DNA from: Spirochaetia bacterium 38H-sp
GTDB taxonomy: Bacteria; Spirochaetota; Spirochaetia; Winmispirales; Winmispiraceae
Length of the DNA: 64,000 nt
Direction of reading: 5' to 3'
NCBI GenBank assembly: GCA_039023545.1
Contig: JBCHKQ010000002.1
Coordinates: 124,001-188,000, forward strand
A model generated the notes under the pieces. It ran no database searches. It was given only the letters and a program-made list of their open reading frames with translations, and was not told the origin of the DNA. This document shows, piece after piece, positions 11,548-58,985 of this stretch. Made by a program: the position numbers and the translations under genes. Positions within the stretch are counted from its first letter, which is position 1; every line of letters starts with the position of its first letter.

Positions 11548-11702
11548 TTCCGAACGGCTTTCCCTGCTCCAGGTTGTACAAATAAGATATAAGATGCAGG
11601 TAAAGCCTGCCTGCCGGCGCATAATATAAAAATAAAACATACAAAATACTTTCTTTCACAAGAAACAGCCCTGAGAAGCTGTGGTTCTCAGGGCGTTCGG
11701 TA
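11548..11702 (+). repeat. ACCGAAC/GTTCGGT structured element, copy 1 (full)
   Basis: The ends are TCCGAAC (11549-11555) and GTTCGGT (11695-11701). Long hairpin A has arms 11556-11567 and 11596-11607 (GGCTTT-C-CCTGC with GCAGG-T-AAAGCC, one C/T mismatch). A GC-rich small hairpin follows near 11608-11621, then an A-rich linker. A small hairpin TTTC-ACAA-GAAA precedes long hairpin B, arms GCCCTGAGAA (11668-11677) and TTCTCAGGGC (11685-11694), which abuts the 3' end motif. It sits between convergent genes and has no U-tract. Confidence 0.85.
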
Positions 11703-11709
11703 TAAAATA

Positions 11710-13275
11710 TTATTTTGAAAGAGATGATAGAGAAACCTCTACTATGCTTCCGTCTTCTTTTTGTGCATAGAGATACTCGGGAGTAAAGGTTATCCCGGTG
11801 TAGGGTGCAACGCGTTCGCGTGTATATGCCGTGAGTACAAGATTCTGGTCAAAGGCGCCTATGTGCCAAGCAGAGTCCTTCTCAAAAACAGCATATATCT
11901 GCCCGTCATGAATCTCTAAAACAGAGTAAATGCTTATTTTCTCGGCAGACTGTTTCTTGATGTCTAGAGTTTTCTTATCCAGAAGGTACATCGTAGCATA
12001 TGTGGAATCCACAGGAGAGAGAACAAGATACTGCTTGTTATAGTCAGCAGGACTCCTCCCCACTATGTTGACCGCAACACCAGCCACAGGCTCGTATGTA
12101 GTGGTATCAAGCAGTACAAACTGGCTTTTTATTGGCCCAGAAGTATCAATAACCTTTACAAGGGGGATCTGTGCCGGGCTACCTCCAGCCTGAGTCTCCA
12201 TTACTTTTTGCTGATCTTGAGCAATCTCCTGACGTTCCTGCTTGACCTGCTTTTCTTTCTCCGCAACTTGCTGTTCTTTTTGTGCCAGCTCTTCTTTCTT
12301 CTGTACTGTTTCTTGCTCTTTTTTTGCCAAATCCTGCTTCTTCGTATCAAGTTGCTGCTTCTGCTCCTCTACAGTTTTAAGCTCCTCTTTTGCCTGCTTT
12401 TCTTCCTGGCTACCAGGCGGAGCTGTTTCAAGTTTTTTCTGAGCTTCTTCTTCTTTCTGCGCAAGCTCTTTTTCCTGTTGAGCTATTTCCTGTTTTTGCG
12501 TTTCCAGGCTCTTCTTTTGCTGAGTAAGCTCCTGTTTTTGCTCTTCTATAGTCTGCTTTTCCTTCTCAATCTGTTTTTCTTTTATATCTACAAGATCTTT
12601 TCTCTCGCTTATAGCCTTGTCTTCTTGCTTTTTAAGCTCCTGGACAACTTCTCTATCAGTAAGCCCCTGCGTATCAACTGCAGTTATATCTCTGTCAGAA
12701 AAATTATCCGACAAAGGAATTACTATCTGGCTCTTTCCGGGCCAATCCTTGTAATGAGTGGCAAGCCCTACTTTATCCTCTCTCAGATAAGAATTTACTT
12801 CTTGTGTATACATTTGTTCAAAGTAGGTTATATTTCCACGCAGCACAGCGTTATACACTGTGATAAAAAAAGCGAGGGTCTTTGCGTCCTCAGGACTGTA
12901 AGAATATGCATCCTCAAGATATCCTGCGATAATTCTCCTGAGGTTGAGTATATGATCCACACCTGCTCCTGGAAGTAGCTCTATGATATCCGCCTTAAGA
13001 GTTGCGGGCTCCGTAGAATTGACAGCATGAATAACCCTGTATTTATTTCCATAAGAACGCGTAAAACTAGCAGAATAGTCGGGAGAGGATGCAAGCACTC
13101 TTCCTATGCCCTTTATCTGCTCTATTGTATCTATTTTGTCATAGGGCCCCTGATAATTGATAAAAGTTATTTCTGCATCCTGATATATACTAAGCTCGCT
13201 TCTCGATACCTCAAGACCATAGACCATGAAAAGACTAAGTAAAACTATAAAAAGCGCCAAGCATATCCTTCTCAC
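11710..13275 (-). CDS. p83/100-family antigen with long coiled coil
   Basis: The 521-residue exported protein has a signal peptide over about residues 1-20. The start of the mature protein (EVSRSELSIYQDAEITFINY, then GPYDKIDTIEQIKGIGR) closely matches the spirochaete p83/100 antigens of Borrelia and Treponema. Residues about 210-370 form a Gln/Glu/Lys-rich coiled coil in heptads, with one Pro-Gly break near 285. The C-terminal part (about 375-521) resembles a partial propeller. The start is GTG at 13275 with GGAGG 5 bases before it. It lies 15 bases after the propeller gene, so the two form an operon. p83/100 proteins are periplasmic or surface-associated; their function is unsettled. Confidence 0.88.
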   Translation of the reverse strand: MRRICLALFIVLLSLFMVYGLEVSRSELSIYQDAEITFINYQGPYDKIDTIEQIKGIGRVLASSPDYSASFTRSYGNKYRVIHAVNSTEPATLKADIIELLPGAGVDHILNLRRIIAGYLEDAYSYSPEDAKTLAFFITVYNAVLRGNITYFEQMYTQEVNSYLREDKVGLATHYKDWPGKSQIVIPLSDNFSDRDITAVDTQGLTDREVVQELKKQEDKAISERKDLVDIKEKQIEKEKQTIEEQKQELTQQKKSLETQKQEIAQQEKELAQKEEEAQKKLETAPPGSQEEKQAKEELKTVEEQKQQLDTKKQDLAKKEQETVQKKEELAQKEQQVAEKEKQVKQERQEIAQDQQKVMETQAGGSPAQIPLVKVIDTSGPIKSQFVLLDTTTYEPVAGVAVNIVGRSPADYNKQYLVLSPVDSTYATMYLLDKKTLDIKKQSAEKISIYSVLEIHDGQIYAVFEKDSAWHIGAFDQNLVLTAYTRERVAPYTGITFTPEYLYAQKEDGSIVEVSLSSLSK

Positions 13276-13290
13276 ACCAGCCTCCTTACC

Positions 13291-14961
13291 CTATTGTAAA
13301 AGCTCAATAGCTTTTTTTCTAATCCCGGCAGGAAAAGGTCCATGTAAAATGTATGCTACCATTTCCGCAGCCTGTTTTTCTGCTGTATTACCTCTATTAT
13401 ACTTTAATATTACAGAAAGTGCAGTAATAAATTCCTCAGATATTGCAAAAATAGTATCGTTGGGAAGTCTCTTGAGCATTCTTGACATGTGTGTGCTTAT
13501 GACCCCATTGGGATCAAATCCATAATAAGCAATGCCTTTAAGTACTCCCTCTAGGGTGTAAGGCAGAGCCTCGTACTTGAGTCCGGATACAAGGAGATAA
13601 AGCATACTGCTGTCACCAACAAGACCTGCAAGCTCATAAGCCTTTGCCCTAACTTGACTGTAACGCCTGGACATATCCGCATCTTCTATACCCTTTTTAA
13701 CAAGCAAATCTATACAATAGATATAAAAATCAAGCTTGCCGGCAAGATTGCCTTTTTCTATCTGCTTTTCTATTATCCTTGCAGCCCTCATGTTCTCATC
13801 TACGTCGCTGCTGTCAACAAGAGACTTGAGATATAAGAACTCATCGGTTTTTTCCCACCATTTATAATTGGCAGAAGACATATCATAATATCCTGTATTA
13901 TTAAAACCTCTAGGAGAGGTCCAAGAAGACTCCGAAATTACAAAGAAATCCAGACCATAAACAATCCAATCTGTGGTACTAAGGATAACCTGTCCTGTAA
14001 CAGGATGAGCAGAAACAGACAGGGGAGTACCCCTATAAGGCTGAGACTTACCTGGACTTATATCTTTTACTGCTCCATCAAAAGATACAGCAAAAACCCT
14101 GTTTTTTTCCGACACAAGAATCAATGTACTATCAGAAGAAAGATAGCTCAGAGAGGACTTTACGACAAAAGGAGTCCTAAAGGATTTCTCAAGAAGCCCA
14201 GTGTAAGAAAAAAAGAAAACATCGCCACTTCCTGCAATAAGAACAATATTACTACTGTTAGAGAGAAGAACAGCATCGTAAAGACCAACAAGCGGGAAGC
14301 TCCACTTTATATTGTTATCCGTATCCAGAGAAATAAGAGTCTTGCCTGTATATAGCACTAGTTCCCTGTTACCGTAAGGAGCTATAGAACGCACATCATC
14401 TGGAAACTGCCTCTGCCACATTATATGACCACCATAAGTTACGGCATACAGCACATTATCTTGCAAAACAAACACAAGTCCGTAAGCAGATATAACATAC
14501 GGCACTGACCTGCCAGAAAAATTGATATGCCACAAAGATCTGCCAGAAGGATTGAGCCGTACGAGATTATTGTCTTTTGTTACGGCAAACACATCCCCAT
14601 ATCTTGATAAAGCCGGATAAGAGGCCATACCAAGTCTGTATTTCCACAGCAAAGACAAATCACCAGAAAAGGCATAAAGAGTACCATCCTTATCAGAAAG
14701 GAAGACAGGGCCATAAGAGGATAAAGCAGCAAATCCATATGGCCGTATATCCAACCATCCTGCACGCAATTTTACGCCACTATCAGCAAGAAAAACATAG
14801 CTGCCATCCCTGTTTACGGAGATAATTCTACCAGAAGGAGAAAAAAGAGGAGAAAGAACCGTATTGGCAGTAGAAACATACCACCATCCTGCAGACTCCT
14901 CATCGGAGAAAACAGCAAAGCAAATAAAAAATACGATAAAACATGCAAGCACTTTTTTCAT
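13291..14961 (-). CDS. Exported PQQ-type beta-propeller with helical C-terminal domain
   Basis: The 556-residue protein has a signal peptide (about 1-18). Residues about 25-345 hold seven or eight repeats of the PQQ/quinoprotein type, with strands such as GRIISVNRDGSYVFLAD, GTLYAFSGDLSLLWKYRL and NLVRLNPSGRSLWHINF. Residues 370-556 are helical and HEAT-like (ending GPFPAGIRKKAIELLQ). Such propellers often serve as outer-membrane assembly scaffolds; no enzyme residues are visible. Its promoter at 14968-14996 ends 6 bases before the ATG, so the mRNA should be leaderless. Confidence 0.8.
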   Translation of the reverse strand: MKKVLACFIVFFICFAVFSDEESAGWWYVSTANTVLSPLFSPSGRIISVNRDGSYVFLADSGVKLRAGWLDIRPYGFAALSSYGPVFLSDKDGTLYAFSGDLSLLWKYRLGMASYPALSRYGDVFAVTKDNNLVRLNPSGRSLWHINFSGRSVPYVISAYGLVFVLQDNVLYAVTYGGHIMWQRQFPDDVRSIAPYGNRELVLYTGKTLISLDTDNNIKWSFPLVGLYDAVLLSNSSNIVLIAGSGDVFFFSYTGLLEKSFRTPFVVKSSLSYLSSDSTLILVSEKNRVFAVSFDGAVKDISPGKSQPYRGTPLSVSAHPVTGQVILSTTDWIVYGLDFFVISESSWTSPRGFNNTGYYDMSSANYKWWEKTDEFLYLKSLVDSSDVDENMRAARIIEKQIEKGNLAGKLDFYIYCIDLLVKKGIEDADMSRRYSQVRAKAYELAGLVGDSSMLYLLVSGLKYEALPYTLEGVLKGIAYYGFDPNGVISTHMSRMLKRLPNDTIFAISEEFITALSVILKYNRGNTAEKQAAEMVAYILHGPFPAGIRKKAIELLQ

Positions 14962-14967
14962 ACGCCT

Positions 14968-14996
14968 AAGATACCCTTATTGGCGATAATTTACAA
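14968..14996 (-). promoter_or_regulatory. Promoter of the propeller-p83/100 operon, leaderless
   Basis: On the minus strand TTGTAA (14991-14996), a 17-base spacer and TATCTT (14968-14973), then six bases and the ATG at 14961. Confidence 0.72.
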
Positions 14997-15025
14997 TTAA
15001 TTTTTGTAATAACCACAATACAAGC

Positions 15026-15054
15026 TTGACGGCCATGAGAAAACAGAGTAAACT
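15026..15054 (+). promoter_or_regulatory. Promoter of the RRM protein gene
   Basis: TTGACG (15026-15031), a 17-base spacer, TAAACT (15049-15054). Transcription would begin near 15061, leaving a leader of about 140 bases before the ATG at 15202, in contrast to the leaderless genes nearby. Confidence 0.65.
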
Positions 15055-15060
15055 TAAATT

Positions 15061-15201
15061 GAGCTAGGATTTATAAAGTTGGGTTCTATTGTCCATCGTT
15101 CTTTTCTTTTTTTCAGCATGAAACAACTTAAACCCTACTCCCCTATTGTTGATAGGGTGTGATGATGATTCTCTCATATGAGAGAAAAAGGATTTTATTG
15201 T
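15061..15201 (+). promoter_or_regulatory. Long structured 5' leader of the RRM gene
   Basis: The leader contains a U-rich stretch (about 15098-15116), a hairpin CCCTAT-TGTTG-ATAGGG (about 15142-15158) and a perfect 18-base palindrome (TTCTCTCAT/ATGAGAGAA, about 15170-15187) directly before the AAAGGA ribosome site. Structure next to the ribosome site suggests temperature- or protein-dependent translation, as in cold-shock genes. That is inference. Confidence 0.5.
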
Positions 15202-15510
15202 ATGTCTTTTAAGATTTATGTTGGTAATCTCAATTACCAGACAACAGAAGAAACTCTCCGCAGTACTTTTGAGCAGTATGGAGAGGTTGAGTCAGTAAAA
15301 ATCATTACTGACAGAGATTCCGGTTATTCCAAGGGTTTTGGATTTATAGAGATGGCAGAGCAGGATGCAGGAGAAGCTGCAATCAATGCTCTCAACCAGC
15401 AGGAGCTGGATGGCCGTCAGCTCAGAGTCAACAAGGCTAATGAGCGCGGAGAAAGCAGAGGAAACAGAGGCTCCTTCAGAGGAAATAGATCAAGCTCTTA
15501 TCGCTATTAA
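15202..15510 (+). CDS. Single-RRM RNA-binding protein
   Basis: This 102-residue protein consists of one RNA recognition motif: RNP2 is IYVGNL (residues 4-9), RNP1 is KGFGFIEM (about 44-51), followed by a short Gly/Arg/Ser-rich tail (RGESRGNRGSFRGNR). Such proteins are common in cyanobacteria and spirochaetes and are often cold- or stress-regulated RNA chaperones. I chose the ATG at 15202, which is preceded by AAAGGA and begins directly with the RRM; an in-frame ATG at 15178 lies within the palindrome. A strong terminator follows. Confidence 0.93.
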   Translation: MSFKIYVGNLNYQTTEETLRSTFEQYGEVESVKIITDRDSGYSKGFGFIEMAEQDAGEAAINALNQQELDGRQLRVNKANERGESRGNRGSFRGNRSSSYRY

Positions 15511-15545
15511 AATATAGTAAACAGACGGCTTTAGAAGAGCCATAA

Positions 15546-15572
15546 GGCCCGCCAGAAGGTGGGTCTTTTTTT
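15546..15572 (+). terminator. Intrinsic terminator of the RRM gene
   Basis: The stem is GGCCCGCC with GGTGGGTC (two G-U pairs), loop AGAA, followed by seven T. A weaker hairpin (GGCT/AGCC) precedes it. Confidence 0.85.
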
Positions 15573-15573
15573 G

Positions 15574-15745
15574 TACCGAATGTCGGGACTGTATGTCTGC
15601 AGCAATATAAAGCAAAAAACTTCACAATCCCTCCTGCCTACGGCAAAGAATAAAAAAACTCCAGCCCAATATGCGCCGCAGGCAGGAAGAGCTGCTATAG
15701 CTTTTGTCTTCTCTTCTTATAGGCAAGCAGGTCTGACGTTCGGTA
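15574..15745 (+). repeat. ACCGAAC/GTTCGGT structured element, copy 2 (full, diverged)
   Basis: It begins TACCGAATGTC and ends GACGTTCGGTA (15735-15745). The two ends pair over 11 bases, with T opposite G where the other copies have C-G, so pairing is kept despite change. The small hairpin TGCC-TAC-GGCA lies near 15638-15648 and a second, GCC-GCA-GGC, near 15685-15693. Long hairpin A is weak (GGGA-C-TGT with ACA-A-TCCC) and hairpin B is decayed. It follows the RRM terminator directly. Confidence 0.75.
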
Positions 15746-15771
15746 TATTTTTATTTTTTTTACTGAAATCT

Positions 15772-15839
15772 AAAAAAGGCTCCCAGAGAAAGGAGGAAAA
15801 CTCTGGAAGCCAATATAAAAGGGGGGACTGGAGGTTGTT
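15772..15839 (-). ncRNA. Candidate C-rich small RNA with anti-Shine-Dalgarno loop
   Basis: On the minus strand a consensus promoter (15846-15874) would start an RNA near 15839. An intrinsic terminator ends it: stem GGCTTCCAGAG / CTCTGGGAGCC (15801-15811 with 15778-15788, one A-C-type mismatch) and six T (15777-15772). The length is about 68 bases. The single-stranded 5' part has CCTCC and CCCCCC. The terminator loop and adjoining arm read CCTCCTTTCT, the sequence of the usual bacterial 16S rRNA 3' tail. No open reading frame fits. It resembles the C-rich-loop sRNAs of Firmicutes in logic, not in sequence. Confidence 0.7.
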
Positions 15840-15845
15840 GATAAT

Positions 15846-15874
15846 AATATAAATAGTTTTGTCAGCTTTGTCAA
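15846..15874 (-). promoter_or_regulatory. Promoter of the C-rich sRNA candidate
   Basis: On the minus strand TTGACA (15869-15874), exactly 17 bases, TATATT (15846-15851). No protein gene lies downstream on this strand before the terminator at 15772-15811. Confidence 0.75.
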
Positions 15875-15908
15875 TAAAAAATTGGAGTTTTTAGAGTTTT
15901 TTATATGC

Positions 15909-15937
15909 TTGAAAAGGCCTGCTATTGTTTATATGAT
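15909..15937 (+). promoter_or_regulatory. Promoter of the acyltransferase-like gene, leaderless
   Basis: TTGAAA (15909-15914), 17 bases, TATGAT (15932-15937), then six bases and the ATG at 15944. It diverges from the sRNA promoter at 15846-15874. Confidence 0.75.
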
Positions 15938-15943
15938 ATTTAT

Positions 15944-17245
15944 ATGAGTAATTCCGGCAGATGGTTTAGACTTGATAATGCTGCTAAAATTTTCCCGTCT
16001 GTTATTTCTCCCAGAAGAACTACTCTGTTTAGAGTTTCTGCAAGAATGTATGAGCCTGTAAACCTGGATATGCTTAAGCAGGCTTTGGAGAAGACTTACG
16101 AGCGCTTTCCCTACTATCGAGTAAGGATGAAAACAGGTTTTTTCTGGTACTATTTTGAGGAATGCCAGGAGATTCCAGAGATAGAAGCAGACTCAAGATA
16201 CCCTTGTGTGTGGTACAAGAATCAGAATCCACAGCGTTTTCCCCTACGGGTGCGTGTTTTTGACCGTCAGATTGCTGTTGAGATGTTTCATTCTCTCACA
16301 GATGGCACAGGAGCAACGGAGTTTTTAAAAACCCTTATATCTTTATATTTTAACATAAGATATGGCGTGCAAACTCCTCCCAATGAGGGGGTGCTACTTC
16401 CTGGAGATGAGTGGTTGGAAGAAGAAGCAGAAGACAGCTTTAGTAAGCATTATAACAGCTCAATTCCAAAGTCTGCACTGCCTCCAAAAGCTTTTCATGT
16501 ACCTGGCAAGCTGGCAGAACCAGGAGTTTACTATATAACCACTGCGACAATCCCCATGGCACAGTTAAAAGATACCGCAAAAAAACTGGGGGTAACTGTT
16601 ACTGTTCTTCTTACAGCACTTTACTTTTGGACATTTTATCTGATTCAAAAAACCAGCGATAAAAAAGACAAAAACCCTATAATAATCCAAATACCTGTAA
16701 ATCTTAGAAAAATACTTGATTCTTCATCAATGAAAAACTTTTTTCTTCTTGTATTTCCATCTATAGACTCCAGGCTGGGCGAATACAGTTTTGAAGAGAT
16801 ATTAAATTATGTAAAATATTACTTTAAATTGGAAATAAACAAAAAAAGCATACTGCAGCAGATAAAAAGAAATGTTTCATCAGAAAAGAATATCTTTGCA
16901 AGACTTACTCCACTTTTTATAAAAAACATTATTCTCAGTAAGGTTTACGAAAGCTGGGGGGATATGAGAGCAACAAGCAGCCTGTCCAATATGGGGTTGA
17001 TAAAACTTCCGGAAGAGATAGAAAAATATATTGAGAGATTTGATTTTTACCCGCCTCCCAACCCCACTATGAAGGTATGCTGTACAGCTGTTGCATTTAA
17101 AGATAAAGTCAATATAAGTTTTGGCAGATCCATAGAAGAAACTACCGTGGAAAAAACCTTTTTTGCTATGCTAAAACAATACAGCATGAATATTTTCGTA
17201 GAAACAAATTATAAGTACGAAGAGCATAAAGGAGTTATGCTATGA
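15944..17245 (+). CDS. Condensation-domain-like acyltransferase (alcohol acetyltransferase family)
   Basis: The protein of about 433 residues has the two-lobed fold of the CoA-dependent acyltransferase/condensation superfamily. The signature HxxxDG is FHSLTDGTGA near residue 118, giving a catalytic His and structural Asp; a later block SNMGLIKLP matches the second lobe of alcohol acetyltransferase-like proteins. The substrate cannot be read from sequence. I start at 15944 because the earlier ATG at 15905 overlaps the promoter -35 box. Its stop overlaps the ATG of the zinc-ribbon membrane protein (ATGA), a pairing also found in Firmicutes, so acylation of a lipid or alcohol at the membrane is plausible. 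Confidence 0.72.
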   Translation: MSNSGRWFRLDNAAKIFPSVISPRRTTLFRVSARMYEPVNLDMLKQALEKTYERFPYYRVRMKTGFFWYYFEECQEIPEIEADSRYPCVWYKNQNPQRFPLRVRVFDRQIAVEMFHSLTDGTGATEFLKTLISLYFNIRYGVQTPPNEGVLLPGDEWLEEEAEDSFSKHYNSSIPKSALPPKAFHVPGKLAEPGVYYITTATIPMAQLKDTAKKLGVTVTVLLTALYFWTFYLIQKTSDKKDKNPIIIQIPVNLRKILDSSSMKNFFLLVFPSIDSRLGEYSFEEILNYVKYYFKLEINKKSILQQIKRNVSSEKNIFARLTPLFIKNIILSKVYESWGDMRATSSLSNMGLIKLPEEIEKYIERFDFYPPPNPTMKVCCTAVAFKDKVNISFGRSIEETTVEKTFFAMLKQYSMNIFVETNYKYEEHKGVML

Positions 17246-17952: not shown

Positions 17953-17955
17953 GAT

Positions 17956-33281: not shown

Positions 33282-33335
33282 TCATAACATAAATAATACA
33301 AAAAAATTACACATATGTAAAACAATTATAAAACA

Positions 33336-33492
33336 TACCGAACGGCCTTGCCTGCCCGCTTGATGAAAAACATGAGTAAAAGCTAGGCAAGGCCTGCCTT
33401 CGGCATATAAAAATAAAGAAAATAAGTTTTTTATTATTTTTCTCCTGCAGGATGCAGCAGTGCCGCATATCAATGCGGCGCTGCGTTCGGTA
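33336..33492 (+). repeat. ACCGAAC/GTTCGGT structured element, copy 3 (full, best preserved)
   Basis: The ends are ACCGAAC (33337-33343) and GTTCGGT (33485-33491). Long hairpin A has arms GGCCTTGCCT (33344-33353) and AGGCAAGGCC (33385-33394), 10 of 10 paired. Small hairpin TGCC-TTC-GGCA follows (33395-33405), then an A-rich linker, small hairpin TGCA-GGA-TGCA (33446-33456) and long hairpin B GCAGTGCCGCAT / ATGCGGCGCTGC (33457-33468 with 33473-33484), 12 pairs including one G-U. It sits between the divergent rimP and MFS genes. Confidence 0.92.
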
Positions 33493-33544
33493 TAAAAACT
33501 AACATGGCAAGCTATTACCAAAATAGAATCAACAGTAAAAATGC

Positions 33545-39584: not shown

Positions 39585-39663
39585 TGTTTTTTTATCGGCA
39601 AAATGCGCCTAATACTTACACCTCAGTAAACAAAATCCATACAACACATACAATAATAAAAAA

Positions 39664-39824
39664 TACCGAACGGAGTGCCTGTGCCAATAAAGCAAAATAA
39701 ATCAAGAAAAGCTCAGGCACTCCTGCCTCCGGCAGATATACAGCTGATGTCAGCAAACACTTCACAAGCTTCTGCCAGAGGCAGCAGAGGGACGCATATT
39801 TTATGCGTCCCTCTGCGTTCGGTA
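39664..39824 (+). repeat. ACCGAAC/GTTCGGT structured element, copy 4 (full)
   Basis: The ends are ACCGAAC (39665-39671) and GTTCGGT (39817-39823). Hairpin A GGAGTGCCTG (39672-39681) / CAGGCACTCC (39714-39723), 10 of 10 paired; small hairpin TGCC-TCC-GGCA (39724-39734); small hairpin TGCC-AGA-GGCA (39773-39783); hairpin B GCAGAGGGACGCATA (39784-39798) / TATGCGTCCCTCTGC (39802-39816), 15 of 15 paired. It lies between tandem minus-strand genes. Confidence 0.92.
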
Positions 39825-39847
39825 AAAAAAACATTTATCCTTTAAAA

Positions 39848-40696
39848 TCAGTTATATATGTAATCTCCAATTGTTTCCGCTTTTTCCTTGAGCTTTTTTA
39901 TTGCCCTAAGCTCTATCTGTCTTACCGTCTCAGGAGAAATTCCCAAGTCAAGGCTTATACCTTTTAACGTTTCCCTAGGACCTCCGTCAAGCGAATACCT
40001 GTGAATCAAAACCTTTTGTTCTCTCTCATCAAGAGACTCTTTTATCAGATTGATAGTATCTTCTTTAAAAGCCTTTTTGCATATTTCTTCCTCAGGAGAA
40101 TCTCCTCCGACACAAATATCCATAAGCACTCCATTGGAGTCGGAAAGCTCAGAATCCAGAGAAGCCATCTCCTGCCCCAGCGACAAGAGCTCAGCAACCT
40201 CAAAAGGGTCCATATCCATTCTTTCTGCGATTTCCTCGCAAGTAGGTTCTCTCATAATCCTTTGCCTTAACTCCATTCTTATAGTTTTAATACGCCTTAT
40301 GGTATCTTCTTTTCTGTTGGGAAGCCGTATGGTTCTTTTTTTGTTCATTAGTGCCCTGTTTATGGACTGGCGTATCCACCAGGCAGCATAAGTGGAAAAA
40401 CGCACATTTCTTCTGTAGTCAAACTTCTCCGCTGCCCTCATGAGTCCGATATTGCCTTCCTGTATAAGATCCATAACAGGCAAGCCGTGTCCGGTATAAT
40501 GAAGTGCAATTTTCACAACCAATCTCAGGTTGGAAGTTATAAGTTTTTCTCTGGCATTTTTATCTCCCTTTCTTATAAGACGTGACAGTTCCTTTTCTTC
40601 CGCTGCTGACAGGAGAGGCGTTTTCTTTATCTCTCTAAGATAAGCAGAAAGTGTTTCTTCTATTGCAGAATTATTCTTTTTCTCTTTTGCATCCAT
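39848..40696 (-). CDS. Sigma-70 family factor, group 2 type (RpoS/RpoD-like)
   Basis: The 282-residue sigma factor has region 1.2 (AYLREIKKTPLLSAAEEKEL), 2 (SNLRLVVKIALHY, DLIQEGNIGLMRAAEKFDYRRNVRFSTYAAWWIRQ), 3 and 4.2 (ETLKGISLDLGISPETVRQIELRAIKKL). Region 1.1 is absent, so it is not the primary factor but an alternative one using near-consensus promoters. I start at 40696, where GGAG lies seven bases upstream; the longer frame adds a Cys-rich stretch unlike sigma factors. Confidence 0.92.
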   Translation of the reverse strand: MDAKEKKNNSAIEETLSAYLREIKKTPLLSAAEEKELSRLIRKGDKNAREKLITSNLRLVVKIALHYTGHGLPVMDLIQEGNIGLMRAAEKFDYRRNVRFSTYAAWWIRQSINRALMNKKRTIRLPNRKEDTIRRIKTIRMELRQRIMREPTCEEIAERMDMDPFEVAELLSLGQEMASLDSELSDSNGVLMDICVGGDSPEEEICKKAFKEDTINLIKESLDEREQKVLIHRYSLDGGPRETLKGISLDLGISPETVRQIELRAIKKLKEKAETIGDYIYN

Positions 40697-40894
40697 AACA
40701 CGCTCCTTGCCTATTAACAAGCAAGAAGCATGCCAACAATAAAAACATTTTCCAAAGATATAACTTATTTGCATATAAAAAAATAGACAACAACAATTCT
40801 CTAGGCCAAATTGTTTTTTTTTAAGAATAAAAACTGTATACTTTTTAATACAGGTTTTCCGGCAAAATATAGTAAATTTTTATAGTAAAGCAAT

Positions 40895-43015: not shown

Positions 43016-43087
43016 GCCAGAATAGCTCAGCGGTAGAGCAACGCTCTCGTAAAGCGTGGGTCGTGGGTTCAAGTCCCACTTCTGGCT
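43016..43087 (+). tRNA. tRNA-Thr (anticodon CGT)
   Basis: Cloverleaf: acceptor GCCAGAA/TTCTGGC, D stem GCTC/GAGC, anticodon stem ACGCT/AGCGT with loop CTCGTAA (anticodon CGT), T arm GTGGG-TTCAAGT-CCCAC, discriminator T. The 3' CCA is not encoded. It has its own promoter and terminator. Confidence 0.96.
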
Positions 43088-46540: not shown

Positions 46541-46599
46541 GTATAATTTTATAACAAAATTTTCCCTTTTTTTTAAAATATATCACATTTTATTTTTTA

Positions 46600-46748
46600 T
46601 ACCGAACGGCAGAACCGCACAGGATAAGATAAAGAGAAAAGCAAAAAGCGTTTCTGCCTGCCTGCGGCACATAAAGAAAAAATCCAAACATCCAAGTTTT
46701 CTTCCGCCAGGAGGCAGCACAGACCGCTTGGCGGTCTGTGCGTTCGAT
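46600..46748 (+). repeat. ACCGAAC/GTTCGGT structured element, copy 5 (full)
   Basis: The ends are ACCGAAC (46601-46607) and GTTCGAT (46742-46748). Hairpin A: GGCAGAA-C-CGC with GCG-T-TTCTGCC, showing the same C/T mismatch type as copy 1. Small hairpin TGCC-TGC-GGCA (46659-46669); small hairpin GCC-AGGA-GGC; hairpin B GCACAGACCGC (46717-46727) / GCGGTCTGTGC (46731-46741), 11 of 11 paired. It lies between divergent genes, 19 bases upstream of the PHP promoter. Confidence 0.9.
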
Positions 46749-46766
46749 TTATTTTATTTCTGCGTA

Positions 46767-49294: not shown

Positions 49295-49305
49295 AGGAGC
49301 TTATT

Positions 49306-51234: not shown

Positions 51235-51237
51235 CAG

Positions 51238-51462
51238 ATGAAACAGCTAAAAAAATCTTTAAAAAGAATAAGCAAAACGGTTCTTGATGTTATAATGCTT
51301 GCCGTTGGACTTATAATCATAGCCTTTATAATATCCTACGGACTTTGGTTTGCAGCCTCTAAGTCTCCCAGGATATTTTCTGCCTCTGTAGTCATATTAA
51401 CAACAGGTATTATAATATATATGTTTATAAAAAAAATAATAAGAAAAAAGCAGGAAAGGTGA
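51238..51462 (+). CDS. Small two-helix membrane protein
   Basis: The 74-residue protein has a basic N-terminus and two hydrophobic helices (about 17-38 and 45-66), ending in Lys/Arg-rich residues, so both termini are cytoplasmic. It overlaps the LysM-M23 gene by 4 bases. No family recognised. Confidence 0.65.
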   Translation: MKQLKKSLKRISKTVLDVIMLAVGLIIIAFIISYGLWFAASKSPRIFSASVVILTTGIIIYMFIKKIIRKKQER

Positions 51463-53323: not shown

Positions 53324-53339
53324 TTTTTTGTAATTATTG

Positions 53340-53368
53340 TTAAACAAAATTGTTTTTATAACGATAAT
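53340..53368 (+). promoter_or_regulatory. Possible promoter of the 53375 sRNA candidate
   Basis: TTAAAC (53340-53345), 17 bases, GATAAT (53363-53368). The -35 is weak (three of six), the -10 is good. Confidence 0.4.
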
Positions 53369-53374
53369 TACTGT

Positions 53375-53458
53375 GTCGGTAATGTCTATAGTTCCCCTCC
53401 CAGACACTATGATTTACCGACTAGCCGAAAGGTCAGCCACCATGGCTGACCTTTTTTT
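53375..53458 (+). ncRNA. Candidate small RNA with C-rich loop and terminator
   Basis: Beginning near 53375: stem GTCGGTAA/TTACCGAC-type (the arms enclose an inner hairpin TGTCT/AGACA whose loop has CCCCTCCC), then a GNRA-capped mini hairpin GCC-GAAA-GGT, then a perfect terminator GGTCAGCCA/TGGCTGACC (53431-53451) and seven T (53452-53458). The length is about 84 bases. The C-rich loop could pair with GGAGG or GGGAGGGG ribosome sites. It could also be an attenuator of the PBP gene, but that gene has its own promoter after the terminator. Confidence 0.55.
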
Positions 53459-53464
53459 ATATAC

Positions 53465-53493
53465 TTGACAAAGACAGAGTATAAACATACTTT
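53465..53493 (+). promoter_or_regulatory. Promoter of the class A PBP gene, leaderless
   Basis: TTGACA (53465-53470), 17 bases, TACTTT (53488-53493), nine bases, ATG at 53503. Confidence 0.7.
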
Positions 53494-53502
53494 AATTTAT
53501 CT

Positions 53503-56025
53503 ATGGCTAAAATAAAAAAGACCGGACTACTCAAGATACTGCTTTATTTCTTAATTTTGTGGGCTATAGGAATCGGAACCGCACTCGGTATTTCTCTTGC
53601 TCAGACCATAAATATAGAAACATTTGAAGATGTAGGTAAAACAAATATTTCTTTATCTAGCAAGCTTCTGGATAAAAATGACAAGCTAATAACAGAATAT
53701 TTCTCCGAGCAAAAAAGAGAACTTGTATCCATAGATAAATTACCCAAACATCTTATATATGCTCTTCTCACCAGAGAAGATCAGGAATTCTACCATCATA
53801 ACGGATTTAGCTTTAAAAACACTATGCGTGCTCTTATAAATATCGTTCTGGGAAGATATGTATCAGGAGGAAGCACAATAACACAGCAGGTTGCTGGTAC
53901 TCTATATGCAGATAGAAACGAGTTTAGCTTATCAAGAAAGCTCAGAGAGCTTTGGTGGGCCTTTCAGCTAGAAAGGAATTTGACCAAAGATGAAATATTG
54001 GAAATATATTTGAATACTGTATATCTTGGACATGGTACATATGGCGTTGAGGCTGCATCTCAGTTTTACTTTGGTCATTCCGCAAAAGATTTAACCCTAG
54101 CAGAGTCAGCTGTACTCGTAGTACAGTTATCAAGCCCTGGCTACAACTCTCCTATCAATCATCCGGAGAGAGCAAAACTACGACAATGGGCTGTCCTGGA
54201 AGAAATGGCAAAACTGGGATACATAACAAAAGAAGAAGCAAAACAATCGTATGATAATTTCTGGAAAAATTTCAATTACACCAGAACTCAGAACAGCTCT
54301 GTATTTGTAGAAAAACAGGATAAAGCTCCCTATTTTTCGGAATATGTGAGACAGCAACTAGAACAAAAGCTTCTGGGAACATTTAATATATACAAAGATG
54401 GTTTCACAATTCACACTACATTAAATTTGGATTACCAAAAACTTGCAGAAGAATATTTTACAGAAGGGCTGGAGCTAGCAAACAAGAAATTTAAAAGAAA
54501 TCAATCTACTGCAAATATAAGCACAGAAGAGAAGTTTATCCCCATACTCGATATGCTTGCCATAAGTTTTGATATGCCAAAACTTTCCTCGGGAGAGACC
54601 AGAAGGCGTATCAAGGCAAAAAAATATGCTACTAAAGAATTATTGCCTCTCCTGGAGACAACCGCAGGATTATTTAATCTGGAAAACATGGGCAAGCTTA
54701 TAGAAGACAAGAACCAGAAGATTCTGCAAGAACAGAAAAAAAATTCAGTAGAAGGTGCACTGATAACTCTAGAAAATGATACTGGTTATATAGTAGCTAT
54801 GATAGGTGGAAGTAAATTCGGTCCTCTCAATCAGTTTAACAGAGCAGTACAGGCTAAAGTCCAGCCAGGATCATCTTTTAAACCTATATATTATTCCGCA
54901 GCTATCAGCAGTAAGAAATTTACACCAGCAACACTCATATATGACGGACCTGTAGTATTTTGGAACGATGACGGAACGCCTTACAAGCCTCTTAACTATC
55001 GTGGAGAATGGAAAGGTTATGTGACAGTAAGAACTGCTCTTTCTCATTCTATGAACGTCCCCTCTATAAAAGTACTGGATGCAGTGGGTTTTGATGCGGC
55101 TATAGATAGAGCAAGCAAACTTCTTGGTATCGATGACCCTGTAGAAATTGCAAAGACCTTCCCAAGAAAATATCCTCTTGGGCTTGGTATTATCAGTGTA
55201 AGTCCGATACAGATGGCAAGAGCATATGCAATTTTTGCAAATCAGGGAAAGGAAGTTAATCCTGTTGCAATAAGATATGTGGAGGACAGGTCAGGAAAGA
55301 TAATCTGGGAACCAGAAAAAGAACTTAGAGAATCTCAGAAGAAAAAAGGTGATAGTATATATGTAATAAGCCCTCAAACTGCATATATAATGACAAGTTT
55401 GCTTCAGACCACCGTGGAATCTGGCACTCTCAGATATGCGAGAAGTCTGGTTGGCGGATTCAATATGCCTATGGCCGGTAAAACAGGTACTACACAGAAC
55501 TGGTCGGATGTATGGACAGTTGGGTTCTCTCCGTACTATACGACTGCTGTATGGTTTGGCTTTGACCAGCAGGGACATTCTCTTGGAGTCAATCAGACAG
55601 GTGCAGTAACAACAGGTCCTGTTTGGGCAAAATACATGAAGGCAATACATGAAAATCTCCCTCCCAAGGATTTTAAGATGCCCACAAAAGGTATCGTAAA
55701 AGTAAAGGTTACGGAGCATGGTCTTTTACCTCCTCCCGGATATCCGGAAGATAAAATAAGAGAAGAGGTATTTATTGCTGGTACAGAACCTAAGGAATTC
55801 GATAAAATTGTAGAGTTTCAGAAAGAACGAAATGAGATAACAGAACAAAAGATTCTCAACTCTGTAATAGAAGAGGATTTGTCGCTTGATACAAGTCCGG
55901 ATAGCCTCGGGCTTGAGCTGGATCCAGAATTAAAGGCTATATTAGAAGGAAGTGTTGAGGGCAAGGATAACGCGGGAAATACGTTACCGGATGATAATCC
56001 TGATTATAATCCTTTATTAGATTAA
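53503..56025 (+). CDS. Class A penicillin-binding protein (PBP1A type)
   Basis: Bifunctional peptidoglycan synthase of 840 residues. N-terminal membrane helix (about 8-29), GT51 glycosyltransferase (catalytic Glu in LTREDQEFYHHNGFS; GGSTITQQVA; RKLRELWWAFQLER), a linker, and the transpeptidase with SxxK in GSSFKPI, SxN in SHSMNVPS and KTGTTQNWSD. The C-terminus is acidic and low-complexity. It is a single gene with its own leaderless promoter; it works downstream of MurJ. Confidence 0.97.
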   Translation: MAKIKKTGLLKILLYFLILWAIGIGTALGISLAQTINIETFEDVGKTNISLSSKLLDKNDKLITEYFSEQKRELVSIDKLPKHLIYALLTREDQEFYHHNGFSFKNTMRALINIVLGRYVSGGSTITQQVAGTLYADRNEFSLSRKLRELWWAFQLERNLTKDEILEIYLNTVYLGHGTYGVEAASQFYFGHSAKDLTLAESAVLVVQLSSPGYNSPINHPERAKLRQWAVLEEMAKLGYITKEEAKQSYDNFWKNFNYTRTQNSSVFVEKQDKAPYFSEYVRQQLEQKLLGTFNIYKDGFTIHTTLNLDYQKLAEEYFTEGLELANKKFKRNQSTANISTEEKFIPILDMLAISFDMPKLSSGETRRRIKAKKYATKELLPLLETTAGLFNLENMGKLIEDKNQKILQEQKKNSVEGALITLENDTGYIVAMIGGSKFGPLNQFNRAVQAKVQPGSSFKPIYYSAAISSKKFTPATLIYDGPVVFWNDDGTPYKPLNYRGEWKGYVTVRTALSHSMNVPSIKVLDAVGFDAAIDRASKLLGIDDPVEIAKTFPRKYPLGLGIISVSPIQMARAYAIFANQGKEVNPVAIRYVEDRSGKIIWEPEKELRESQKKKGDSIYVISPQTAYIMTSLLQTTVESGTLRYARSLVGGFNMPMAGKTGTTQNWSDVWTVGFSPYYTTAVWFGFDQQGHSLGVNQTGAVTTGPVWAKYMKAIHENLPPKDFKMPTKGIVKVKVTEHGLLPPPGYPEDKIREEVFIAGTEPKEFDKIVEFQKERNEITEQKILNSVIEEDLSLDTSPDSLGLELDPELKAILEGSVEGKDNAGNTLPDDNPDYNPLLD

Positions 56026-56042
56026 AATTTATGTTTTTTATC

Positions 56043-56071
56043 TTCACCAACAGCCTATAATTTTATATTAT
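56043..56071 (+). promoter_or_regulatory. Promoter of the ParB-like gene, leaderless
   Basis: TTCACC (56043-56048), 17 bases, TATTAT (56066-56071), six bases, ATG at 56078. Confidence 0.55.
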
Positions 56072-56077
56072 TAGAGT

Positions 56078-56476
56078 ATGCAGGTTGATATAGAAAAGAT
56101 ATACATTCCAGCCAGGATAAGAAAGGATATCGGAGATATAACTCCTCTCAAAGAAAGTTTGCAGAGATTTGGCTTGTTGCATCCTATAATCATCAATCGC
56201 GATTTTGAACTCATTGCTGGCTATAGAAGGCTTATGGCTGCAAAAGAGCTGGGATGGAAAAAAATAGAGGTTAAGGTTCTTTCTCTGGAGGATGAGGCAC
56301 AGAAGACTCAGCTTGAGATAGAAGAAAATACAACCAGAAAACAGCTCAACCTGCAGGAGGAAACTGACGGGTATCTACTTCTAAATTCTCTTCAAAATCC
56401 TTCTTTCTTCACTCGTCTAAAATTATGGTTTAAAAGGCTCTGGAAGAAAATAATACGCTGGTTTAGAAAGAGATAG
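56078..56476 (+). CDS. ParB N-domain protein with cationic amphipathic tail
   Basis: The 132-residue protein has only the ParB/Srx-like N-domain: IHPxxxR-like start, LLHPIIINRDFELIAGYRRLMAAKEL (GYRRLMA is the ParB GERRxRA box) and EENTTRKQLN (the ENxQRxxLN box), the sites that bind CTP in ParB. The helix-turn-helix and dimer domains are missing. Instead residues about 110-132 form a tail rich in Trp, Phe, Lys and Arg (LKLWFKRLWKK, IIRWFRKR) that looks membrane- or nucleic-acid-binding. No parA is near, so it is not the segregation ParB. Confidence 0.75.
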   Translation: MQVDIEKIYIPARIRKDIGDITPLKESLQRFGLLHPIIINRDFELIAGYRRLMAAKELGWKKIEVKVLSLEDEAQKTQLEIEENTTRKQLNLQEETDGYLLLNSLQNPSFFTRLKLWFKRLWKKIIRWFRKR

Positions 56477-56563
56477 ACAGACAAAGTAATATTTCTATTT
56501 TTTCTCCACTTTATAGCAGTATAATGTTATAATTATATGTAGATTATGTTCCCGGAGGTGTTT

Positions 56564-57117
56564 ATGAGACGGGAACTTTTTGTAATCCTATTTTTTTTAC
56601 AGGGCTATCCGTAATGGCTAGTGATTTTTCTTCTGATGAGCTTTATAATGAGAGGCTAAGTAATGTGCGTTCTTCTTCCGCATGGGTAGGTGCTGCGGCA
56701 GGGACTGCGGCTGGTATGATTAATATGTGGCTTACTATCTATGACAGAGGATTTGACGGTGCCATTGCTCTAACGACAATCCCTCCTGTTTTTATCGCTG
56801 CTTTTGTGGGATATTTTTCTACTCAGTGGGCTGCTGTCAATGTCACAAAAAACTGTTCGTATCTTTTTATGGGTTTTCTACAGGGCATTTTCTGGGGTGC
56901 TGTGGATGGGGTTATTATTGCTTTTTCTGCTTATCTTCCGCTCTTTATTATTGGTGAGCTGACAGGTACGATTAATTTTAACTTTGATAATAGCACTTTT
57001 TATCCTCTGCAGCTTCTAGGAACCACTGTCCTTGGTTCTGTTCTGTATGGAGGAGTTTATGGTGCTGTCTGTGGAGCTGTAGGCGGTCCAGTGATAAGTC
57101 TCTATATGCGTATCTAG
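56564..57117 (+). CDS. Membrane protein with signal peptide split off by a T8 frameshift
   Basis: From the ATG at 56564 (after GGAGGTG) a 16-codon frame encodes MRRELFVILFFLQGYP and stops, overlapping the ATG at 56614 as TAATG. The 56614 frame gives 167 residues with four hydrophobic segments. Inserting one T in the run 56591-56598 fuses them and yields a normal signal peptide, ending FFFTGLSVMA before SDFSSDEL. As read, the mature part would be made by re-initiation without its signal. Function unknown; Gly/Ala-rich helices suggest a pore or anchor. Confidence 0.72.
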
Positions 57118-57174
57118 CTGCTCTTATAAATGTAGTCCTCGCAAAATAGTTATCTATATGGTCGCTTTTACGCT

Positions 57175-57260
57175 GTATTTTTATTATGTGCCACAGGCAG
57201 GCTTTGTCCGTGCTTTGCCCCTTGGGTTTACAGCAGAGAGCACGGACGAAGCCGTTCGGG
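57175..57260 (-). repeat. ACCGAAC/GTTCGGT element, copy 7 (5' half, minus strand)
   Basis: Read on the minus strand: CCCGAAC at 57260-57254, then hairpin A of 14 pairs with one mismatch (GGCTT-C-GTCCGTGCT, 57253-57239, with AGCACGGAC-A-AAGCC, 57214-57200), small hairpin TGCC-TGT-GGCA (57199-57189) and an A-rich linker. There is no 3' half. It begins right after the pyrBI stop codon. Confidence 0.82.
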
Positions 57261-58838
57261 CTATTTCCATATTGTGTCATAGCTGTGAGGTTTTTCGCAA
57301 AACTTACAGATAAAAAGGTCACTTGTAGAACGGTAAAACTCTGGTATTACGTGCTCGTGCAGAGCTGGATTGGATATGCAATCCTCGTTTTTACAGGAGA
57401 TTTCGTCCAGGTTGTATATGCGCGGCGGCATCTTTATTCTGAATTTTTTTATGACTCGTGAGTCTGATATGATGTTTACTGTGCAGCCTGGTGCAATTGC
57501 ACCTAGCATTTTTATGTGTTTTGCATCAAAGAAGTCCATGTCCGGCAGAGAGATTATGCCCTTGTGCTCGCCTGTCCGAAGTGACTGGTAAACGCCGTGG
57601 GAGCTTATACGGTTGAGGTTTAGAATACGTCTAATTTTGTCAATGTGGCTCCATATATCGGCCGGGCTTCTACCCATGCCAATGTGGTCGATAACAATGC
57701 CTTTTTCTACGGGTTTTATGCCTACTTTGTACTCCGGTTTTTTTCTTGCAACAACGGGCACTTCTACTACAAAATCATCGTCAAATCTAGGCAGCTCCCT
57801 TGTTTGTCCCTCAAAATCGTCACCCAGTTTGCCTGCAAGCATTGCCAGAAGGATTGTGCGGGTATAAAAGCCATTTATCGATTGGCGGTCCCAACCGTTG
57901 AGTGGAAGATGGTCAAGAAAGTGTGGTATCGTAGGTCTTTCTCTGTGTCTGGGGAGAGGATGATAAAAGCGGGTTCCAGGAGGAAGCAAATCAATATATT
58001 TTTCTGCAAAAGTAACTGCAGAGCGCAATTCTTCTTCTTTCTCAAGAACATGCTCCCCCATTCTTTCCAGCTGTAGGCGGGTAAAATACCAGATGGTAGC
58101 TACATCTTTCTGAGAAAGATAAGCATCTATAGAAGGAAACTGTCGCACATCAAAGCCGGCCTCGCACATGCGTTTTACATAATGTTCTGGCATAGCAATA
58201 TCAGAAGGAGCAATCAAATCAACCTTAACGCTGTCAAAAACCCCAAGTCCATCCACTTTAGAATGCACTGTCCTTCCGTGGAACAAGTCGCCAACAAGCG
58301 CCACATGTATGTGCGATCTATCCCAGCCCTGATGCTCAAGAAAAGAAAACTCATCCAGAAACTCTTGTGTAGGATGCTCATGCTTACCATCTCCCCCATT
58401 AATGAAAACAGGCAAATCCCGGCCTACGGATGACGCATACTCGGACATAACCTGCTCAAGCCAACGACAAAGCCCCTCCTGCCTAGAACGAGTTACAATA
58501 ATGCTGGAGCGATTATAACCCACGAGCATCTTAACAGTATCAGTTATACTCTCCTTCTTGTTAAAAGAAGAAGTCATTACATTAAAATCATTTACAACAA
58601 TATCATGAAAAGAAGCAGCATTACGGAAAGACTCCTTTGTCCGCGTACTATCCTCAAGAAAAAGCAAATAAACATTCATACCCCTGTCAACAATCCTAAA
58701 ATCGGACAAATCCTCTCCACTCTCAAAACGCCTCTTAAACTCCATAGCCTTGGAATACATATAAAACTGCTCATCTCTGCTCAAATCACGCACAGTAGCT
58801 ACTGTCCTGCCCTTAAACGGATGAGGACTCATATACAC
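57261..58838 (-). CDS. Aspartate carbamoyltransferase, catalytic-regulatory fusion (PyrBI)
   Basis: Second step of pyrimidine synthesis. The 525-residue fusion has a PyrB part (about 1-350: LFLEDSTRTKESFRNA, GGDGKHEHPTQEFLDE, HPLPRHRE) and a PyrI part (about 370-525) with an allosteric domain and a zinc site (CKNEDC and CKFC near the end). In the carbamoyl-phosphate loop the usual STRTR is STRTK. Such fusions occur in Treponema and Thermotoga. Start GTG at 58838, or ATG at 58832, better spaced from GGGGG. Confidence 0.92.
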   Translation of the reverse strand: MYMSPHPFKGRTVATVRDLSRDEQFYMYSKAMEFKRRFESGEDLSDFRIVDRGMNVYLLFLEDSTRTKESFRNAASFHDIVVNDFNVMTSSFNKKESITDTVKMLVGYNRSSIIVTRSRQEGLCRWLEQVMSEYASSVGRDLPVFINGGDGKHEHPTQEFLDEFSFLEHQGWDRSHIHVALVGDLFHGRTVHSKVDGLGVFDSVKVDLIAPSDIAMPEHYVKRMCEAGFDVRQFPSIDAYLSQKDVATIWYFTRLQLERMGEHVLEKEEELRSAVTFAEKYIDLLPPGTRFYHPLPRHRERPTIPHFLDHLPLNGWDRQSINGFYTRTILLAMLAGKLGDDFEGQTRELPRFDDDFVVEVPVVARKKPEYKVGIKPVEKGIVIDHIGMGRSPADIWSHIDKIRRILNLNRISSHGVYQSLRTGEHKGIISLPDMDFFDAKHIKMLGAIAPGCTVNIISDSRVIKKFRIKMPPRIYNLDEISCKNEDCISNPALHEHVIPEFYRSTSDLFICKFCEKPHSYDTIWK

Positions 58839-58862
58839 CCCCTGTAAAAGTCACACAAATAC

Positions 58863-58891
58863 AGTATGCCTTAACACACAACATAGGTCAA
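58863..58891 (-). promoter_or_regulatory. Promoter of pyrBI
   Basis: On the minus strand TTGACC (58886-58891), 17 bases, CATACT (58863-58868), about 24 bases before the start, with GGGGG in the leader. Confidence 0.6.
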
Positions 58892-58908
58892 GTTAAATAT
58901 CCCGATAA

Positions 58909-58985
58909 TACCGAACGGCGAATCCGCAGATAACAAGTAAACAGCAACGGATTCGCCTGCCTTCGGCAAATAAATAAAGAAAACA
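58909..58985 (+). repeat. ACCGAAC/GTTCGGT element, copy 6 (5' half)
   Basis: ACCGAAC (58910-58916), hairpin A GGCGAATCCG (58917-58926) / CGGATTCGCC (58948-58957), 10 of 10 paired, small hairpin TGCC-TTC-GGCA (58958-58968), then the A-rich linker. No hairpin B or GTTCGGT follows before the promoter at 59002. Confidence 0.85.

Follow-up and report, generated by a model that had tools for sequence, protein, structure and literature searches.

Tagged hairpin modules with free stem sequences form a dispersed family in the genome of Spirochaetia bacterium 38H-sp

A 64,000-nt stretch of the genome of Spirochaetia bacterium 38H-sp (contig JBCHKQ010000002.1, positions 124,001 to 188,000; hereafter the window) was found to carry members of a dispersed family of structured elements. 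The elements proved to be genuine and strongly structured, no Rfam family matches them, and their unit is a tagged hairpin module. In each module a hairpin abuts the tag AnACCGAACG and is followed by a fixed block on the inner side, CTGCCTNCGGCA. An original prediction, made from the letters of the window, had proposed such a family; it was confirmed, the window holding five full copies and one half copy with strong covariation between the hairpin arms. The reading preferred here, in which about even confidence is placed, is that of a non-autonomous mobile family resembling REPINs, the inverted doublets of repetitive extragenic palindromic (REP) sequences. Its members would be read as a single strand and would in part have been recruited as terminators.

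The genome (2.35 Mb, 25 contigs) contains 490 occurrences of ACCGAACG, 246 being forward and 244 reverse, whereas the reversed pattern has 50 and 33. ACCGAAC was present 11 times in the window, where 1.8 were expected, and none of 100 shuffled sequences reached 11. Modules were counted in detail in 864 kb, namely the window together with 800 kb of contig C1. Genes were called by codon usage with our own procedure (618 genes, coding fraction 0.81–0.84), and the intergenic counts are hence approximate. Among the 190 ACCGAAC sites lying away from the ends of both sequence strings, 175 were intergenic and the next base was G in 168 of these 175. A hairpin with a score of at least 8 started no more than 3 nt from the tag at 122 of the 190 sites, compared with 10/624 for nine control heptamers, which included the reverse complement of the tag (5/190) and a one-letter variant (2/13).

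The 168 modules were sorted by what follows the hairpin: the inner block TGCC-NNN-GGCA in 107 (H modules), a T-tract in 53 (T modules) and neither in eight. A stricter rule gave 43 T modules among 174 sites. The base at position −2 from the tag was A in 96% of H and of T modules, the neighbouring bases being looser. Two facing, that is inverted, H modules form a full element (F), mostly 137–159 nt long, whose hairpins are of two kinds, A with a long loop (mostly 44–54 nt) and B tight (20–33 nt). Exact facing pairs hold 62 of the 168 modules. Mate tags of the 107 H modules were exact in 42 cases and had one mismatch in 14 (0 and 0 in control windows); mates with two mismatches (4/107) were not above the control (8/107).

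The whole element, folded as a five-helix junction, had been predicted to be the functional unit, and this was not borne out. Stems averaged 8.49 Watson–Crick pairs out of 10 both in the 45 solitary and in the 49 paired modules among 94 anchorable H modules, the paired class here including two-mismatch mates; half an element is therefore preserved no less than a full one. The predicted fold may differ as well. The inner blocks are inverted copies, and CTGCCT can pair with AGGCAG, so that the two small hairpins may instead pair mutually and make a four-way junction whose crossing leaves no base unpaired.

A covariance model (R1) was built on 23 full copies, four of which are window copies. As the original prediction had proposed, the genome and its relatives were searched with the model, the order being represented by three genomes in the collection. 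At E values up to 0.01, 150 matches were obtained here. This equals the number of candidates scored, out of 2234, and in a few cases both strands of one place were counted. The two sister-genus genomes gave no match among 150 scored candidates each (of 467 and 355). Counts of ACCGAACG were elevated in many other spirochaete genomes, but as a sign of the family these counts are misleading; most inspected sites look coding. In 19 stretches from ten other genomes of the phylum (sister genus included), inspected by eye, no ACCGAAC was followed by such a hairpin, and some stretches lacked ACCGAAC.

Pairing was tested in 107 anchored units, which differ as a set from the 107 H modules. The 10 nt that follow the tag were compared with the 10 nt that precede the inner block, both being chosen blind to pairing. 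The 5′ arms comprised 94 distinct 10-nt sequences, and some sub-families share stem sequence. At arm positions 4–9 the arms matched at 0.88, 0.87, 0.86, 0.72, 0.80 and 0.75, against means of 0.27–0.35 and a maximum of 0.50 when the arms were shuffled 1000 times. All four Watson–Crick pair types were present at these positions. The first stem base was G in 107/107 units and was paired with C in 98. Positions 2 and 3 matched less well (0.65 and 0.64) because 22 of the 107 units carry a conserved TC/TC internal loop there, one base pair above the tag; the loop is found in A modules (e.g. L033:5542-5699). Poor pairing (fewer than 6 of 10) was seen in 15/107 units, and in about ten the pattern had taken the far block instead of the near one.

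A second set of 20 copies was taken from contigs C2, C3, C6 and C7, picked by model score, a choice that favours good tags. In its 37 modules, positions 4–9 matched at 0.65–1.0, and every position exceeded its own shuffled maximum (means 0.26–0.35, maxima 0.51–0.65). Exact tags were present at 39/40 ends and the TC/TC loop in 11/18 A modules; the inner block was unmatched by the pattern at 3/40 ends. In the alignment of the 23 full copies, 88.3% of cells paired compared with 72.4% after shuffling. The covariation score of the abutting-helix structure was 0.411, against 0.123 ± 0.013 for shuffled alignments (0/500 reached it), and fell to 0.053–0.107 when the partner was slid by 1–3 columns. 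Both-sided changes were found at 10/11 pairs of hairpin A and 10/11 of hairpin B. The covariation of the arms in the 107 units and the 23 full copies supports the earlier claim that selection acts on pairing and not on sequence.

The constrained strand was determined from mismatches, on the premise that G.T is tolerated and A.C is not because pairing would act within one single strand. On the tag-first strand of 151 modules, 48 A.C mismatches were counted against 8 G.T (p = 4.7e-8). The strand reading hairpin-CGTTCGGTnT is therefore the constrained one. The A.C:G.T ratio was 31:5 in H modules and 17:3 in T modules; the T stems were selected by pairing score, which makes their mismatch counts less clean than the H counts. 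By gene context it was 12:1 (divergent), 8:1 (convergent), 9:3 (read-forward) and 19:3 (read-backward). On the A-to-B strand of the 23 full copies, G-U cells numbered 17 in hairpin B, where the tag comes last, and 2 in hairpin A, where it comes first. Hairpins A and B of the same element are thus constrained on opposite strands. The mini-hairpin triloops read on the outward strand were GNA in 66/89 cases, N being all four bases, and in 24/34 of the second set; GNA triloops are unusually stable in DNA. The strand-specific wobble is in favour of the single-stranded fold that had been predicted.

The flanks of the copies are unrelated. Identity over the 40-nt flanks of the 23 full copies was 0.31 and 0.30, compared with 0.30 and 0.29 for shuffled flanks, and reached 0.38 and 0.40 in the ten nucleotides nearest the element. 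The element interior had an identity of 0.55 (0.42 without tags and inner blocks). Among the 45 best alignments listed, 25 begin no more than 8 nt ahead of the tag, 10 begin within the element and the other 10 extend 10–40 nt beyond it. The solitary H modules at C1:103066 and C1:115862, which lie 12.8 kb apart, share 39 identical nt running from the tag through the whole inner block; the identity includes a further 3 nt before the tag, beyond which the sequences differ, and the next best pair shares 36 nt. Unrelated flanks, together with this distant pair whose identity is confined to the module, show that the copies are dispersed; a single module can therefore also be the copying unit.

GC skew and gene direction both switch sign near C1:375 kb (genome G000), which is likely to be a replication origin. 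Polarity was examined at 43 places of C1 and the window scoring at least 59 bits, the better strand of each being used and weaker places left out. The A-to-B polarity opposes the leading strand in 29 of 38 C1 elements (p = 0.0017), and in 23/30 at 85 bits or more (p = 0.005). The same holds for 4/5 elements of the window, whose mostly negative skew was assigned to the left arm. On C1, 16/20 elements flanked by divergent or convergent genes oppose the leading strand; in tandem contexts the polarity agrees with gene direction in 9/20. Element polarity follows replication, not genes. Counted against and with the leading strand, paired A modules were 22:5 and paired B modules 10:21, as expected.

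Under the preferred reading of a REPIN-like mobile family, tagged palindromes and their inverted doublets would work like REPs and REPINs, A and B modules facing each other to form the element. A protein that reads single-stranded DNA (RNA being less likely) would respond to the fixed tag and to a hairpin next to it, whatever the sequence of the stem. The stem would then be free to drift provided that both arms change together. The recognised strand would read mini-hairpin, hairpin, CGTTCGGTnT. Insertion may be coupled to replication, which would fix polarity relative to the fork. The enzyme may have been lost from the genome, and some modules may later have acquired a T-tract and would now be ordinary intrinsic terminators. 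In favour of this reading are the unrelated flanks, the two identical solitary modules, the model matches here as opposed to none in the sister genus, the covariation, the strand asymmetry with its GNA triloops, the polarity, the mate tags and the TC/TC loop.

Several observations weigh against this reading. A Y1 transposase or RAYT (REP-associated tyrosine transposase) gene was not found by a PF01797 search of the genome (0 matches, 6 candidates scored; controls positive in 5/14 genomes). The best full-length pair in the 864 kb is 76% identical; the full copies are therefore old, and present movement of whole elements was not seen. The identical solitary modules could also come from gene conversion. 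Solitary modules lean the same way relative to the leading strand (A 18:10, B 6:13, against:with), not significantly so, and solitary T modules have no replication bias (17:21). The wobble asymmetry has the same direction in the second set (A.C:G.T = 7:3) but is not significant there (p = 0.34), and a one-strand mutation bias could mimic it. REPIN singlets are read as decayed remnants in the account consulted (PMC3116915), whereas singlets here keep their stems. In the texts consulted, the active strand of a REP carries its tag 5′ to the hairpin, whereas the wobble-constrained strand here has its tag 3′.

Other enzymes and an autonomous copy were also sought. Transposase searches covered PF01797, PF13358 and PF04986, the last being uninformative as controls were positive nowhere. 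The genome gave 0 matches to DDE_3 (PF13358; 0 candidates, controls positive in 3/14 genomes) and 0 matches to reverse transcriptase (PF00078; controls positive in 3/14 genomes). Two full phage-integrase proteins and one further fragment were found. By eye, the two full tyrosine recombinases look like XerC/XerD, from neighbours reading as ftsZ and topA. The fragment at locus L188 (G000 C7:36939-37046) belongs to a tyrosine recombinase and has a stop codon; it is possibly the remnant of an integrated element. Facing tag pairs 0.26–6 kb apart numbered 28 in the 864 kb, and the proteins inside nine of them look by eye like ordinary host genes, so that none of the nine was retained as an autonomous copy.

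Elements with the same ends were sought more widely by scanning a species-genome collection, which may omit the genome of the window, for ATACCGAACG-N(116-146)-CGTTCGGTAT. The pattern was found in 46 stretches, 43 of them in metagenome-assembled genomes of Chlamydiae or Parachlamydiales. The three non-chlamydial matches were taken as chance, with only 6, 7 and 3 of 10 arm letters matching. Viral contigs gave no match to the paired-tag pattern. The chlamydial elements (loci L091-L135 except L094 and L098; ends TATACCGAACG..CGTTCGGTATA) are single long palindromes, preceded by T in 43 and followed by A in 44 of 44 cases. Among 34 distinct arm pairs, positions one to three covary, with matches of 0.85–0.91 against shuffled means of 0.31–0.51 and maxima of 0.56–0.79. 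Position four covaries more weakly (0.91 against 0.69, maximum 0.85), and later positions are mostly conserved in sequence. Shorter versions of these palindromes occur. At L136:304-1041, two chlamydial ends 0.74 kb apart flank a reading frame that by eye resembles a short-chain dehydrogenase; it is perhaps a captured gene fragment, and the pair was rejected as a transposase carrier. The same ends in spirochaete and chlamydial elements may reflect a shared enzyme or chance. A class of mobile or host elements common to Spirochaetota and Chlamydiota, read by its tag and the mere presence of a hairpin on one strand, with a free stem and moved or used by a single-strand-reading protein, is a tentative proposal, possible rather than probable.

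Doubtful is the alternative that the modules are host punctuation, that is, bidirectional terminators or 3′-end elements whose tag would be the signal for a termination or RNA-end factor. In that case the RNA made outward would read hairpin-CGUUCGGUnU followed by a U-rich tract. A third of the modules (53/168) carry a T-tract right after the hairpin and resemble terminators. Of these T modules, 37 follow a gene on the same strand, 30 of them sitting 0–18 nt past its stop codon, and 16 have an opposite-strand gene upstream. Intrinsic-terminator-like sites were found at most 70 nt from 116 of 617 genes, and 19 of the 116 carry an exact tag directly at the stem in strict register, several more being shifted or degenerate by eye. 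Convergent gene ends with H or F modules rarely have an ordinary intrinsic terminator (3/28, against 20/42 without modules), which favours punctuation, but the trend reverses at tandem gene ends (10/33 against 14/96). The idea that modules replace terminators was dropped when the signal vanished in the pooled test of convergent and widely spaced tandem ends (13/66 against 31/154, p = 1). Beyond the tag the outward strand is rich in T, as punctuation would have it, yet this richness is unrelated to transcription of that strand (p = 0.17). Moreover, 15/60 paired and 12/47 solitary H modules lie between divergent genes, where there is nothing to terminate, and polarity tracks replication instead of genes. 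T modules may plausibly act as terminators; for H and F modules the pooled counts give no such support.

A classical DNA transposon is a rather improbable source. The elements would then be miniature inverted-repeat transposable elements (MITEs) with terminal inverted repeats TACCGAACG and a TA target duplication; a DDE transposase of another genome would move them, and the hairpins would be a by-product. Most copies do have the ends TATACCGAAC..GTTCGGTATA, and the MITE-like chlamydial palindromes have the same ends and the T and A flanks given above. However, no DDE_3 (IS630/Tc1-type) gene was found in the genome, other DDE families not having been searched. Terminal inverted repeats by themselves leave both the covarying stems abutting the tags and the strand-specific wobble unexplained. 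Only the A at −2 is strongly conserved (96%), not a full TA, and the flank seems to behave as a motif, not as the relic of a duplication. The element ends are TATA-palindromic, and T at −3 reaches only 58–68%.

A stand-alone structured non-coding RNA with a four- or five-way junction and many copies is very unlikely. It would fit the abutting helices, the covariation and the stable RNA fold predicted for one copy (z = −7.95), but no Rfam match overlaps an element and solitary modules are kept. The hairpins moreover show their wobble on opposite strands, and no single transcript therefore has both in the constrained form. Template switching during replication copies mutations of one palindrome arm to the other; as an account without selection, in which the arms would simply be homogenised, it would yield matched changes without function and would also fit the long chlamydial palindromes, but it is hardly credible here, being strand-symmetrical where A.C exceeds G.T by 48:8, erasing the TC/TC loop that is kept in 22/107 units and leaving unexplained why stems start exactly at the tag.

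In the window the model locates seven places, namely five full copies, the half copy and a weak seventh match, where eight copies had been predicted. Exact tags had also been predicted for the full copies: the left ACCGAAC is exact in 3/5 and the right tag in 4/5. The first full element, with its A end left, lies at 11546–11704 (+ strand, 91.6 bits). Its left tag is TTCCGAAC, with one mismatch, its hairpin A consists of 6 bp, a C.T mismatch and 5 bp, and its hairpin B is CCCTGAGAA/TTCTCAGGG, followed by the right tag GTTCGGT at 11695–11701. It adjoins a gene for a protein of the Borrelia P83/100 family (11710–13275, E = 1.4e-91). The second full element (15572–15747) is decayed and of ambiguous polarity, because the model scores both strands almost alike (69.5 bits on −, 65.4 on +). 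Its left tag is ACCGAAT, its left end has the GTC..TCC form with the TC/TC internal loop, and its right tag GTTCGGT lies at 15738–15744. Directly upstream of this copy (at 15574 in the original prediction) is a gene for a small RNA recognition motif (RRM) protein (15178–15510), followed by an ordinary-looking terminator.

The third full element (33334–33494, +, 123.2 bits) lies between divergent genes with its A end left. Its left tag ACCGAAC (33337–33343, +) is followed by hairpin A, GGCCTTGCCT / AGGCAAGGCC (33344–33394, +), and by the inner conserved block TGCC-TTC-GGCA (33395–33405, +), a mini-hairpin with its GNA loop on the opposite strand. Hairpin B, GCAGTGCCGCAT / ATGCGGCGCTGC (33457–33484, +), abuts the right tag, which lies on the − strand at 33485–33491 and reads GTTCGGT on +. 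The fourth (39662–39826, +, 117.6 bits) is situated closely 3′ of the stop codon of a sigma-70-type gene (39848–40774, −). Its hairpin A is GGAGTGCCTG / CAGGCACTCC (39672–39723, +) and its 15-bp hairpin B is GCAGAGGGACGCATA / TATGCGTCCCTCTGC (39784–39816, +). The fifth (46598–46751, +, 123.8 bits) is again between divergent genes, and its right tag has decayed to GTTCGAT. The half element (58907–59000, +, 28.8 bits) is a solitary H module in which no B end was seen; it comprises the tag ACCGAAC (58910–58916), the hairpin GGCGAATCCG / CGGATTCGCC and the block TGCC-TTC-GGCA. The weak match at 57140–57254 (−, 20 bits, E = 0.0044) is a possible remnant.

The comparison with Rfam, also proposed at the outset, matched no family to the elements. 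At gathering score the window gave a tRNA alone, the tRNA-Thr (anticodon CGT) at 43016–43087, which is its sole Rfam or tRNA match. At E values up to 1, seven element loci gave one tRNA and five weak matches far below gathering scores, none of which overlaps an element. Literature searches, limited to listings, gave no description of this motif, including queries for TACCGAAC with an inverted repeat, structured repeats and MITE terminators. The statement that no named family is like it stands for the sequence in the searches made, but the anatomy resembles tagged REP palindromes and REPINs.

Among known systems, integron attC sites have a conserved structure, a free stem sequence, recognition as a single strand and RYYxAAC..GTTxRRY-like ends. 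The elements share the conserved structure, the free stem, ends of this kind and, on the preferred reading, recognition as a single strand. The fourth base of the box is G here, not Y as in RYYYAAC/GTTRRRY, no IntI was found, recombinases being limited to the XerC/XerD-like pair and the fragment, and the elements are dispersed among other genes and form no array. The chlamydial palindromes with TATACCGAACG ends, for which no name is known to us, have the same 10-letter ends, a similar length, arms covarying beside the tag and TA flanks. They differ in being one long palindrome without the module plan, and a relation is unproven. IS200/IS605 ends and the MITEs derived from them are described as having subterminal hairpins read single-stranded, with insertion tied to the replication fork (PMC6006769). 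In the present case no Y1 gene was found, the hairpins are constrained on opposite strands and the tags form inverted repeats.

CGTC-tagged palindromes are the nearest precedent in the account consulted, although tag and stem differ. They are reported there as mostly inverted dimers, present in Spirochaetes among other phyla and without a known dedicated transposase, with a CGTC tag, 8–9 bp stems beginning with A-T pairs, loops of 4–5 and CCA tails (PMC3733652). The elements here have another tag, a G-C first pair and a free stem sequence.

As far as the sources consulted describe them, REPs and REPINs share with the present family high copy number, intergenic location, a short fixed tag beside a hairpin, spaced inverted doublets, compensatory changes and, for E. 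coli REPs, a conserved stem mismatch (PMC3116915, PMC8266576, PMC6006769). Here 175/190 tags are intergenic and 62/168 modules stand in exact facing pairs. REPINs are presented as inverted REP doublets in which compensatory changes are common (PMC3116915), and E. coli REPs as needing a stem bulge, which the conserved TC/TC internal loop recalls (PMC8266576). The elements were not filed as REPs or REPINs, because the tag is AnACCGAACG and not GTAG/GT[AG]G, the stem is not a conserved palindrome (94 distinct arms in 107) and no Y1/RAYT gene was found by the PF01797 search; a second fixed block inside the module is a further difference. With hundreds of copies, strand-specific wobble and a polarity that follows replication, the family provides a natural data set on hairpins read by shape and not by letters, and also on mobile repeats turning into terminators. 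Known GTAG-tagged REPs have family-specific stems and a link to a Y1 transposase, an enzyme not found here, whereas in the present family the stem is free and only the pairing and the tag are kept.

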